Of a DNA stretch of 64,000 bases, positions 14,426-27,136 are shown piece after piece. Under the pieces are notes generated by a model. It saw nothing but the letters and a program-made list of their open reading frames with translations, ran no database searches and was not told the DNA's origin. Numbering within the stretch: the stretch's first letter is position 1; each line of letters opens with the position of its first letter. The stretch lies in NCBI GenBank assembly GCA_030603695.1, contig JAUVXF010000007.1:62001-126000 (forward strand), given 5' to 3'. The DNA is from Natronohydrobacter sp. (GTDB lineage: Bacteria; Pseudomonadota; Alphaproteobacteria; Rhodobacterales; Rhodobacteraceae). A program made the translations under genes and the position numbers.

Positions 14426-15322
14426 CTAGAGCAGTGCGGGTTCAGGCACATCCATGCCCGCGGCCCGTGCTTCGCGGCGCAATTCGGTGCACAAAAGATC
14501 GCAAAACCGCCGGCGCGGCGTGTTGGGATCAAACATCAACCCCAACAGACGCAAGGGCGGCGGATCGCCCAACGGCATGACGCGCAATTGCGGGCTGTGC
14601 AATTTGGGATGGTCAGGCACAACAGACACACCCAAGCCCGCCGCAACAAGGGCAAGCACACCGTCCTGCGTATCCACCTCCATCACGGTTTGAACCTGAA
14701 TGCCGTTATGTTCCAACGCGCGTTCCACCATTTCGCCCACGCGGGCCTGACGGGAAAAGCGTACATAGGGGTTGTTTTGCAGCAAATCGCGGAAATCCGT
14801 GCCCTGCGCGCTGGCATGGGCCACAACAACCAGCCGTTGCGCGCTGATGGTGGTAAAGACAAACCCCGGCGCAAGTTCGGTTGTGCCGGTTGTCAGCGCC
14901 ACATCTATCAGCCCTGCGCGCAGCGAGGCTTCCAATTCATGCGCAAGCCCGGTTGTCAGGCGCATTTCCAGCCGTGGGTGGCTTTCGCGCAAGCGGCGCA
15001 ACGCGGCGGGCAGCAGGGTGGAAACAGCCGTATGCACTGCCCCGATCCGCAGCTTGCCGGCATTGCTGTCACGGCGCAGGCTTTCGGACAGGTCTTCCCA
15101 TATTTTTATCACTTCGCGCGCGCGGCCAATGAAATCGCGCCCTTCCTGTGTCAGCACAGGCGGACGGCGCGAGCGGTCGAACAGGCGCAAATCCACATCT
15201 GCCTCCAGCCCGCGCATTTGCACTGAAATCGCCGAGGCCGAAAGTTCCAGCGCCTCTGCCGCTTGGGCAAAGCTGCCGTGATCGACCACCGCAATAAAGG
15301 TATAAAGCGATTTTACATCCAT
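14426..15322 (-). CDS. LysR-family transcriptional regulator
   Basis: N-terminal HTH MDVKSLYTFIAVVDHGSFAQAAEALELSASAISVQMRGLEADVDLRLFDRSRRPPVLTQEG. Confidence 0.94.
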   Translation of the reverse strand: MDVKSLYTFIAVVDHGSFAQAAEALELSASAISVQMRGLEADVDLRLFDRSRRPPVLTQEGRDFIGRAREVIKIWEDLSESLRRDSNAGKLRIGAVHTAVSTLLPAALRRLRESHPRLEMRLTTGLAHELEASLRAGLIDVALTTGTTELAPGFVFTTISAQRLVVVAHASAQGTDFRDLLQNNPYVRFSRQARVGEMVERALEHNGIQVQTVMEVDTQDGVLALVAAGLGVSVVPDHPKLHSPQLRVMPLGDPPPLRLLGLMFDPNTPRRRFCDLLCTELRREARAAGMDVPEPALL

Positions 15323-15325
15323 ACT

Positions 15326-16090
15326 CTAACCACCTGTCACGCCGCGCCAGATCAAGTTAAGCCCCAGACATAGCAACACTGCCAAGACCAACGCGCGGAA
15401 TTTCTGCGCAGGCACCCGGGCCACCATCAGATTGCCAAGCCACATGCCTGCTATTGCAGCAGGCAGCGCGATAGCCGAGAGAAACAGCCGCTCTGCCGTG
15501 AACACCCCCACCAGCACAAACGCGCCCGAAATCAGCACCGCAGAAAGAATGAAAAACAGGCTGAGTGCTGACAGGAATTCGCGCCGATCTGTTTGCAGGC
15601 CCAGCAGATACATCACAAATAGCGGCCCGCCCACAGTTGTCATGGCCCCCACCGCCCCGCCCAGAATACCCGCCGCCCAGCCTGCGCCACGTTCACGCGC
15701 GGGCGCGATGAACAGATTGACCTTGCCCAGCGAAAGGCCGGAAAACGCCACCACCACAGCGCCCAGTGCCAGCATCAGCAGCGAATCGGAAAAGCTGGTA
15801 ATCATCAGCGCGCCCAGCGGCACGCCAATCGCGATCCCCCACAGCACCGGGGCAAAGCGCCGGGCGGTATCGCGCATCTGCCCCATTTGCAGAAACTGCG
15901 CGATATTGGTCAGAAACAGCACCACCACATTCACCGCCAAAGCCGCATCTATGGGCACGAAGAAGGGCAACAGGGCCATTGTGGTTAGCGGCAGGCCAAA
16001 GCCCAAGGCGCCCTTCACCATGCCCCCAAGGATGAAGCTTGCAGCCACCAGCGCCATGTCCCACAGGGTGATCGTGCTGAAAATCACCAT
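15326..16090 (-). CDS. TSUP/TauE-SafE family membrane exporter
   Basis: About 8 TM segments; FILGGMVKGALGFGLPLTTMALLPFFVPIDAALAVNVVVLFLTN and ILGGAVGAMTTVGGPLFVMYLL. Confidence 0.9.
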   Translation of the reverse strand: MVIFSTITLWDMALVAASFILGGMVKGALGFGLPLTTMALLPFFVPIDAALAVNVVVLFLTNIAQFLQMGQMRDTARRFAPVLWGIAIGVPLGALMITSFSDSLLMLALGAVVVAFSGLSLGKVNLFIAPARERGAGWAAGILGGAVGAMTTVGGPLFVMYLLGLQTDRREFLSALSLFFILSAVLISGAFVLVGVFTAERLFLSAIALPAAIAGMWLGNLMVARVPAQKFRALVLAVLLCLGLNLIWRGVTGG

Positions 16091-25383: not shown

Positions 25384-26045
25384 AACCGCGCGAAATCCGC
25401 CTGTCCACCACCCCCACACCAGAGGCCATTGCCGAATTGCGGCTGGGCGATATCGTTTATCTGGACGGGTTGATGTATACCGCGCGCGAGGGCGTGTATA
25501 TGCGCGCACTGGAAGAGAAGGCCAATATCCCCATGGAATTGCCCTCGGAAAGTGCCGCCAATTTCCATTGCTCGCCCGCCGCGCGGATCAATGCCGATGG
25601 CTCTTTCGATATGGGCGCGGTGACGGCCACGGCCTCTTTCCGCTTTGCCAAATGGTTGCCCGAATGGATGGCAAAAACCGGGGCAAAGCTGATTATCGGC
25701 AAAGGCGGCATGAGTTCGCGCGATTACAAGGAATATTTCGTGCCCAATGGCGCGGTGTACCTCTCTACCGTGGGCTATGGCACGGGCGCGCTGCTGGGGC
25801 GCGGGGTGGAAAATGTTGAAGCCGTGCATTGGAACGAGGAATTGGGCCTTGCCCAAGCCATGTGGGTTATCCGCTGCAACAAGATGGGGCCGTTTATCGT
25901 GGCCTCTGATCTGAATGGCGATTGCCTGTTTGAACGCGAGAATGCCAAGATTGCTGAAAACATTGCCCGCGTTTATGAAGGGACAAAACCCGCCGTGCTG
26001 AAACGCTATGGCGAAACCGATGACAGGTCTGACGAGGTGATCTGA
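25380..26045 (+). CDS. class I fumarate hydratase / tartrate dehydratase-like beta subunit
   Basis: LRLGDIVYLDGLMYTAREGVYMRALEE, AKLIIGKGGMSSRDYKEYFVPNGAVYLSTVGYGTGALLGRGVENVEAVHWNEELGLAQAMWVI. Confidence 0.92.
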   Translation: MKPREIRLSTTPTPEAIAELRLGDIVYLDGLMYTAREGVYMRALEEKANIPMELPSESAANFHCSPAARINADGSFDMGAVTATASFRFAKWLPEWMAKTGAKLIIGKGGMSSRDYKEYFVPNGAVYLSTVGYGTGALLGRGVENVEAVHWNEELGLAQAMWVIRCNKMGPFIVASDLNGDCLFERENAKIAENIARVYEGTKPAVLKRYGETDDRSDEVI

Positions 26046-27136
26046 TGCGTGACAGCCCTTTCCAACCCGGCGCTGCGCGCGCCGCAACCCCCGAATTTAC
26101 CCGCGCCGAAGTGGCGCTGGCCAATCGCAATTCGGGTGCGCTGCTGGAATTGCTGGATTGTGACATCACCCCCACAGGCACGCATTATCTGCTTAATCAC
26201 TTCGATGTGCCGGTTTTGCGCGCGCAAGATCATGTGTTGGAATTTGACGGCGCATTTGATGCGCCCTACACCTTAAGCATGGCCGAAATCATGGCCCAGC
26301 CGCAAGTCACCCTGCCTGTGACGCTGGAATGCGCTGGCAATGGCCGCGCAGGGATGGAACCGCGCCCCCTGTCCATGCCCTGGATGTATGAGGCCGTTGG
26401 AACATCGGACTGGACAGGCACACCCCTTGCCCCCCTGCTGGAACGCGCAAAACCGCGCGGCAGCGTGCAGGATTTTGCGTTTTTCGGGGTGGATTTTGGC
26501 TATGATAAAGGCATTCCCCACCATTATGGCCGCAGCCTGACCCCGGCAGAGGTGGCGGGGCTGGATGCCCTGCTTGTCTGGGGCATGAATGGCGCCCCCC
26601 TTTTGCCGCAACATGGCGCACCTTTGCGGCTGATCGTGCCGGGCTGGTATGGCATGGCCTCTGTCAAATGGCTGGGCCGCATTACGGCGCTGGAAACACG
26701 GTTTGACGGGTTTCAGCAGGCGGAAACCTACCGCTTTCGCACCCATAAGGACGATGAGGGCCGGCCCGTGACGCAAATTCATGTCCGTTCGCTGATAAAA
26801 CCGCCCGGCGTGCCCGATTGGTTTAGCCGTATGCGCCGGGTGCAGGCAGGGCCTGTGGCGCTGTCGGGGCGGGCATGGTCTGGCGGCGGTGTGCCGATCG
26901 CCAAGGTGGAGGTGCTGTTGGACGGGGCATGGCAGCAGGCACAGCTTGCACCCCCGCAAGGGCGCTACGCCTGGACGCGCTGGCAGATTGACTGGCAGGC
27001 AACCCCCGGCCAGCATGAAATCGCCTGCCGTGCCACAGATGCCGCAGGCAACACACAGCCGCTTACCGCCCCCTATAATCTGGGCGGCTTTGCCAATAAC
27101 GCGCCGCACCGCGTGACGGTAGAGGTGGTGGATTAA
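26045..27136 (+). CDS. sulfite oxidase-family molybdopterin oxidoreductase (no evident signal peptide)
   Basis: VTLECAGNGRAGMEP (Moco Cys motif), LRLIVPGWYGMASVKWLGRI, C-terminal Mo-co dimerisation-like region (RAWSGGGVPIAKVEVLLDGAW). Confidence 0.9.
   Translation: MRDSPFQPGAARAATPEFTRAEVALANRNSGALLELLDCDITPTGTHYLLNHFDVPVLRAQDHVLEFDGAFDAPYTLSMAEIMAQPQVTLPVTLECAGNGRAGMEPRPLSMPWMYEAVGTSDWTGTPLAPLLERAKPRGSVQDFAFFGVDFGYDKGIPHHYGRSLTPAEVAGLDALLVWGMNGAPLLPQHGAPLRLIVPGWYGMASVKWLGRITALETRFDGFQQAETYRFRTHKDDEGRPVTQIHVRSLIKPPGVPDWFSRMRRVQAGPVALSGRAWSGGGVPIAKVEVLLDGAWQQAQLAPPQGRYAWTRWQIDWQATPGQHEIACRATDAAGNTQPLTAPYNLGGFANNAPHRVTVEVVD

Follow-up and report, generated by a model that had tools for sequence, protein, structure and literature searches.

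Gene content of the locus

The subject of this study is a divergent locus within a 64,000-nt window of the Natronohydrobacter sp. genome (contig JAUVXF010000007.1, positions 62,001 to 126,000), where a relative of respiratory complex II is encoded together with a class I fumarase-like hydratase and candidate sulfite-handling proteins. Gene calls were made from open reading frames (ORFs) and hidden Markov model (HMM) scans, and positions count within the window (Table 1). The plus operon has the order FrdB-FrdC-FrdD-FrdA-FumA-FumB-SUOX, ending with a sulfite-oxidase-like (SUOX-like) gene, and the minus operon the order TPP-TctC-TctB-TctA-TSUP-LysR, beginning with the gene for a thiamine-diphosphate (TPP) enzyme. 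This set and order had been given by an earlier reading of the letters of the window (hereafter, the sequence-only reading), and every gene was confirmed by ORF and HMM; TctA, TctB and TctC had zero NCBIfam matches and owe their identity to homology with other Tct loci. A flavoprotein, an iron-sulfur subunit and two membrane subunits stand together in the plus operon, making the succinate dehydrogenase/fumarate reductase (SDH/FRD) set complete.

The genes had also been described as tightly packed. Indeed, we found 4-nt overlaps at FrdB/FrdC, FrdC/FrdD, FrdA/FumA, FumA/FumB and TctA/TctB, a 1-nt overlap at FumB/SUOX, and spacings of 1 nt at FrdD/FrdA and 3 nt at LysR/TSUP, but the description does not extend to TctB/TctC and TctC/TPP, where looser gaps of 107 and 123 nt occur in the minus operon. 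The exact start codons of FrdB and TPP are uncertain.

Table 1. Features of the locus and their positions in the 64,000-nt window.
Feature	Position	Strand	Basis
LysR-type regulator, last gene of minus operon	14426..15322	-	ORF, HMM
TSUP (TauE/SafE family) exporter, probable sulfite/sulfonate export	15326..16090	-	PF01925, 88 bits
TctA, large membrane subunit of tripartite tricarboxylate transporter	16100..17638	-	PF01970 in genome search
TctB, small membrane subunit	17635..18126	-	ORF, locus comparison
TctC, periplasmic substrate-binding protein	18234..19211	-	ORF, locus comparison
TPP enzyme, benzaldehyde lyase / 2-hydroxyacyl-CoA lyase group	19335..21014	-	HMM
Divergent promoter region, TPP/FrdB gap	21015..21188	no strand	
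FrdB-like iron-sulfur subunit, 2Fe-2S and 4Fe-4S type domains	21189..21977	+	HMM
FrdC/SdhD-like membrane anchor, 114 aa	21974..22318	+	HMM
FrdD/SdhC-like membrane anchor, 113 aa	22315..22656	+	HMM
FrdA-like flavoprotein	22658..24421	+	HMM, alignment to E. coli FrdA
FumA, class I hydro-lyase alpha subunit	24418..25383	+	HMM
FumB, class I hydro-lyase beta subunit	25380..26045	+	HMM
SUOX-like, sulfite-oxidase-family molybdenum protein	26045..27136	+	HMM

Conservation and spread

We found the FrdBCDA-FumAB core nearly always intact in 95 related loci, mostly from Alphaproteobacteria, with FumA identities mostly between 74 and 98 percent; because this core order recurs, the arrangement is not a matter of chance. 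A scan of species genomes had given 595 confirmed stretches, the best 80 of which were kept, and 95 loci were compared once duplicates had been removed; gene lists for unannotated loci came from a purpose-made simple ORF caller. Since the loci are related and were selected by similarity, the fractions given here characterise a close family rather than independent samples. The FrdA-like protein itself was found by genome search in 16 of 148 relative genomes.

The partners of the core are more variable. Of the 95 loci, 55 have LysR within ~11 kb of FrdA and 29 have TctA. Sixty loci were fully covered, with 7.5 kb or more of sequence upstream and 9 kb or more downstream; among these TSUP is present in 44, LysR in 42 and TctA in 23. 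The sequence-only reading had anticipated conservation of the full gene set; this holds for the core but not for the SUOX-like gene, found in 17 of the 95 loci only and thus not co-conserved with the rest. The TPP enzyme is present in 23, and the two genes co-occur (Fisher p = 2e-8). Apart from the locus, the host genome codes for SdhA (contig C16) and NadB (contig C7), and for no further PF05681 fumarase, which argues against a housekeeping role of the Frd-like set. The names of related proteins point to a host resembling Roseinatronobacter.

Several loci carry additional or damaged genes. A CoA-transferase family III gene, found in 11 of the 95 loci overall, follows FumA in L032, L035, L062, L070, L071, L072, L078, L093 and L119, in most cases between FumA and FumB; in other loci this position is occupied by a homocysteine S-methyltransferase-like gene or an SDR gene. 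In some loci an isochorismatase-like gene lies between FrdA and FumA. A small NIPSNAP-domain gene tracks the form of the locus that carries the exporter YeiH (L026, L027, L063, L073, L074, L080, L081, L087, L093, L125, L126, L130 and L131). The FrdA-like gene of L014 (G090:C6:29456-31177) contains a single in-frame TGA. In Pseudomonas sp. MPC6 (L126) and Pseudorhizobium NT-26 (L130) the locus is on plasmids typed as conjugative; such a location may account for the occurrence of the locus in Gammaproteobacteria as well as Alphaproteobacteria.

Changed substrate pockets in the dehydrogenase and the hydratase

Judged from their sequences, both enzymes of the core carry family-wide changes in their substrate pockets. 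In the FrdA-like protein and 93 relatives, residues H232, E245, R287, H355 and R390 (E. coli FrdA numbering) are invariant. The histidine that binds FAD covalently (His44), however, is replaced by cysteine (Cys53), in the relatives too; R114/R115 are Lys/Ala in FrdA-like proteins; and Thr244 corresponds to a glutamate (Glu261) in relatives, with a short insertion ahead of it. We take Thr244 to belong to one carboxylate site, and H355 and R390 to hold the other, so that one end of the substrate site is altered while the other is intact. The protein scores below every flavoprotein equivalog cut-off, and in its AlphaFold model the active-site segments have pLDDT values <50.

FumA keeps the three cluster cysteines, and the hydratase has the KGGM motif shared with the class I family. 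In FumB, in contrast, GPTTSARM has become TATASFRF, and in the hydratase CHTASLP has become CHTGGMP, in relatives too. FumA reaches 201 bits against a fumarase equivalog cut-off of 276, and FumB 114 against 269 and 121 against 264 bits, below the fumarase and tartrate dehydratase equivalog cut-offs. Methylobacterium radiotolerans combines a FrdA of this type with a hydratase that retains a canonical motif and, at 286 bits, passes the fumarase cut-off; this hydratase shares its cluster with SuyAB-, SlcC- and ComC-like genes, and the cluster of L031 is similar.

Association with sulfur genes

The surroundings of the Frd-like locus were compared in nine genomes, which together span about 37 Mb and contain 68 TSUP matches. 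In eight of the nine a TSUP gene lies within ~10 kb of the locus, whereas this holds for 4 of 40 other TctA genes (p = 9e-6). This makes TSUP a companion of the Frd-like locus and not of Tct transporters at large, and we rejected the idea of a general Tct companion. Together with the fully covered loci, this bears out the co-conservation of TSUP. Where a same-strand gene directly after FumB could be identified (37 loci), it was of the SUOX family in 18, YeiH in 9 and TSUP in 4 (31/37). Published work on sulfonate metabolism names the YeiH and TauE families as candidate sulfite/sulfate exporters (PMC11582611; PMC5320631).

Sulfur genes also surround the core in annotated plasmid homologues. On Methylobacterium nodulans pMNOD01 its neighbours are YeiH, TauE, cytochromes c, and a SorA and a SoxC that each exceed their curated cut-off, and the homologue on M. 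radiotolerans pNYY1_1 is accompanied by SuyA/SuyB-like (UxaA family), SlcC-like and ComC-like genes. YeiH and TauE are part of the locus on Paracoccus versutus pTAV3 and P. ferrooxidans pFER3, and after it come ComC- and SlcC-like genes and a tripartite tricarboxylate transporter (TTT). The Pseudomonas sp. MPC6 locus includes a sulfite oxidase with cytochrome c as well as TauE and YeiH. In Paracoccus sp. IB05 (L087) the core is inside a sulfolactate cluster, where one YeiH stands by SuyAB and another follows FumB. Among the genomes of the genus, 6 of 8 with FrdA carry Xsc, as does 1 of 29 without it (p = 8e-5).

Paracoccus wurundjeri growing on sulfofucose induces an 11-gene cluster with fumarate/tartrate annotation in which TauE is gene 7 (PMC12421959). 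The P. onubensis locus (L059) consists of FrdB, C, D, A, FumA, FumB, TSUP, LysR and three ABC transporter genes, eleven in all with TSUP seventh, and by this analogy the induced cluster is probably an equivalent of this type.

Altogether, a role of the locus in sulfonate or organosulfur metabolism is very likely. The view that sulfite handling is built into it gains from the TSUP enrichment, the SUOX, YeiH and TSUP genes after FumB, and the sulfur genes by the plasmid homologues, and the sulfur-gene context likewise supports the proposal that the complex II-like dehydrogenase and the class I fumarase-like hydratase would act on a sulfonated succinate analogue. A non-sulfur C4 or C5 dicarboxylate (succinate, tartrate, methylsuccinate/mesaconate or itaconate) would suit the enzyme families, which belong to the metabolism of succinate, fumarate, tartrate and mesaconate, as well as the CoA-transferase III gene after FumA in at least nine loci. 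It would, however, leave the TSUP, YeiH, SorA, SoxC and Suy genes unexplained, and it fits poorly with pockets altered in both enzymes throughout the relatives, with a hydratase under the fumarase and tartrate dehydratase cut-offs, and with a host that has its own SdhA and NadB; nor did any conserved citramalyl-CoA lyase-like gene stand out in the gene lists, in which no dedicated search for one was made. We regard such a substrate as very unlikely, and plain succinate/tartrate and methylsuccinate rank low.

The association with sulfite and sulfur genes names no substrate, and another sulfur-bearing succinate-like acid (a sulfinate, thioether or mercapto acid) could follow the same logic of dehydrogenation and then hydration. 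The homocysteine S-methyltransferase-like gene and a GST in some loci would agree with this, but such accessory genes are rare, and the sulfolactate genes and true SorA indicate C3 sulfonates and sulfite, making an acid of this kind unlikely.

The SUOX-like protein and the TPP enzyme

The SUOX-like protein has the Oxidored_molyb and Mo-co dimerisation domains, the Mo-ligand Cys, and the equivalents of R190, Y322, H140 and W204 (chicken numbering for Arg sites). R138, however, is Leu in this protein and in 120 of its 120 closest homologues, and R450 is Gly (A, G or S in homologues); SorA also has Ala at 450, but with an Arg nearby. With 159 bits it falls short of the SorA cut-off (600), and no export signal is evident in it, unlike SorA and SoxC of M. 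nodulans. The protein had been read as a possible sulfite-handling enzyme of the sulfite-oxidase type: the domains and the Mo-ligand Cys agree with this, but two sulfite-binding Arg are gone, leaving a simple oxidase unproven. Nevertheless, it may act on sulfite.

Among 298 family genomes the SUOX-like gene occurs in ten, in six of them directly after FumB with the full core and in a seventh beside a remnant FumB. A decayed copy, L122:9400-10973, keeps SUOX and TPP, with FumB internally deleted and Frd and FumA gone. By HMM, the TPP enzyme resembles 2-hydroxyacyl-CoA lyase and benzaldehyde lyase.

Substrate of the proposed pathway

From the observed gene set, its conservation, the pocket changes and the sulfur-gene association we infer a substrate, a reaction direction and a regiochemistry. 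The locus would encode an inducible pathway that acts on a sulfonated analogue of succinate, and the most likely substrate is 3-sulfopropanoate (3-SP), which is succinate with a sulfonate in place of one carboxylate. The tripartite transporter would import the acid, or, in some relatives, SSADH- or ADH-type enzymes would make it from a precursor. The membrane-bound complex II-like FrdBCDA would convert 3-SP to 3-sulfoacrylate, passing electrons to quinone, and the two-subunit [4Fe-4S] hydratase FumAB would add water to the sulfoacrylate; sulfite would exit through TSUP or YeiH exporters and be oxidised to sulfate. By analogy, the sequence succinate, fumarate, malate with the sulfonate swapped in becomes 3-SP, sulfoacrylate, sulfolactate. 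We put the probability of 3-SP as the substrate at roughly one half.

Part of the reason for favouring 3-SP is that one carboxylate pocket of FrdA is changed and the other intact. In Roseovarius nubinhibens ISM, homotaurine metabolism proceeds via 3-SP, sulfoacrylate and sulfolactate, according to a thesis cited in a 2024 paper (PMC11489063), and we found that this organism carries the locus (FrdA 83, FumA 85 and FumB 91 percent identity; L048). SSADH-family dehydrogenase genes are near the core in four loci, and GabD-type enzymes are known makers of 3-SP (PMC5320631). A Zn-alcohol dehydrogenase, near the core in 12 loci and often just upstream of FrdB, would fit oxidation of 3-hydroxypropanesulfonate (3-HPS). 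In MPC6 a CoA-acylating methylmalonate-semialdehyde dehydrogenase (MMSDH; 695 bits against a cut-off of 448) abuts FumB, and an MMSDH homologue is near the core in Cupriavidus P-10.

The sequence-only reading had proposed sulfosuccinate, which the Frd-like enzyme would turn into sulfofumarate; OH would be placed on the sulfonated carbon, and the product would break down to oxaloacetate and sulfite. This chemistry has a precedent in class I fumarases acting on mesaconate and fluorofumarate (PMC4682846), oxaloacetate requires no extra genes and so fits the minimal conserved core, and the sulfite handling built into the locus would serve it. Yet it leaves unexplained the semialdehyde dehydrogenase abutting FumB in MPC6, and also the canonical hydratase of M. 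radiotolerans, which occurs with the same Frd type beside SuyAB-, SlcC- and ComC-like genes; moreover, literature searches on sulfosuccinate catabolism found no gene cluster or gene-level account. Since the sulfolactate neighbours, the MMSDH, the SSADH-type genes and the R. nubinhibens route, as the citing text relates it, fit a C3 sulfonate better, 3-SP is favoured over sulfosuccinate, which we consider improbable.

Possible products of the hydratase

Two outcomes of the hydration of 3-sulfoacrylate can be envisaged. In the first, FumAB would yield 3-sulfolactate, and SlcC, ComC and SuyAB, or Xsc/CuyA, would finish the pathway elsewhere in the cell. This outcome is favoured by the thesis report, as cited, and by the linked sulfolactate genes. 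SuyAB, Xsc and CuyA are absent from the cluster in the window, and Suy adjoins the core only in some relatives, but SuyB and Xsc are present elsewhere in the host genome. Co-occurrence with SuyB was rejected as proof of a sulfolactate product, because SuyB is common in the genus with or without the locus (8/8 genomes versus 21/29); in addition, six genomes with FrdA lack SuyB. It is missing from R. nubinhibens too.

In the second, water would be added at the sulfonate carbon of 3-sulfoacrylate, giving 3-hydroxy-3-sulfopropanoate, which would collapse to malonate semialdehyde and sulfite. This would be a new desulfonation by a relative of fumarase, fed by a respiratory 3-sulfopropanoate dehydrogenase, and we hold this joint reading only tentatively, as rather doubtful. 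It is favoured by the sulfite genes adjoining FumB, the second YeiH of L087, the MMSDH, and two genomes (G084 and G141) that have FrdA but neither SuyB nor Xsc. Mesaconate is hydrated by class I fumarases at its substituted carbon, and fluorofumarate also serves them as a substrate (PMC4682846), which makes either regiochemistry conceivable. The earlier proposal of sulfite release after hydration at the sulfonated carbon survives in part, through those two genomes and the exporter that abuts FumB in several relatives.

Some observations weigh against the 3-SP pathway as set out above. A glutamate (Glu261) beside the substrate is unexpected for binding of an anion, and E. coli enzymes that lose the covalent bond to FAD are less suited to oxidation of the succinate type. 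Both TSUP and YeiH are missing from the neighbourhood of 16 fully covered loci, and G084 and G141 argue against sulfolactate as an obligatory intermediate. The identity of the P. wurundjeri cluster rests on gene count and annotation, not on sequence, and the thesis result on R. nubinhibens comes through a single sentence of another paper, which names no genes.

Intergenic region and flanking genes

Near the TPP start, at 21014-21028, we noted an inverted repeat, TTCA-N7-TGAA, which is kept with an altered spacer in L017 and L018. It is a possible LysR box, and its position hints that the TPP start may be annotated too far upstream; a LysR-box search in five aligned intergenic regions gave a weak hint only. 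Left of the locus (12597-13193) are a holin-associated N-acetylmuramidase gene (NF040573, above cut-off) and then a small membrane-protein ORF. To the right (27226-32633) are SDR, MFS, DUF1365-like and FAD amine-oxidase-like genes and a gene for an ECF-like sigma factor, which presumably resemble a light or singlet-oxygen stress regulon.

Significance and comparison with known systems

3-SP and 3-HPS are products of the breakdown of the plant-sulfolipid sugar. Two recent papers describe their bacterial degradation as unreported beyond one thesis, and the mechanism in a gut bacterium as unclear (PMC11489063, PMC12890257). If the proposed pathway is true, the degradation of 3-SP, so far an orphan step in sulfur cycling, gains its genes with this locus, and a relative of complex II is reassigned to a sulfonate. 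Many marine and soil proteins labelled succinate dehydrogenase, fumarate hydratase or tartrate dehydratase would then get a new annotation, and a proteomics cluster earlier set aside as Krebs-cycle related would be accounted for.

With complex II (SdhABCD/FrdABCD; E. coli FrdA, TfrA group) the Frd-like enzyme has in common the four-subunit set, the catalytic Arg and both active-site His, but it differs in the missing covalent-FAD His, T244 to E, the insertion, and R114/R115 to K/A. FumAB likewise belongs to the family of two-subunit class I fumarase, L-tartrate dehydratase and mesaconase, with the three cluster Cys and KGGM, whereas its other motifs are replaced and its scores are under the equivalog cut-offs. 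The SUOX-like protein shares the Mo-domain, the Mo-ligand Cys and the R190, Y322 and H140 equivalents with the sulfite dehydrogenases SorA, SorT and SoxC, and departs from them in R138 to Leu, R450 to Gly and the lack of an evident export signal. The 3-SP route of R. nubinhibens ISM (PMC11489063) is, in the citing text, assigned to no genes or enzymes, but its chemistry is what Frd and Fum would do, and the organism has the locus. Finally, as compared with sulfolactate dissimilation (SlcHFG TTT, SlcC, ComC, SuyAB, SuyZ/YeiH; PMC5812351), the locus adds a respiratory dehydrogenase and a hydratase, which are in none of the published clusters that we found, while the transporter type and the exporter families are common to both, and in several relatives the sulfolactate genes are physically linked to the core.

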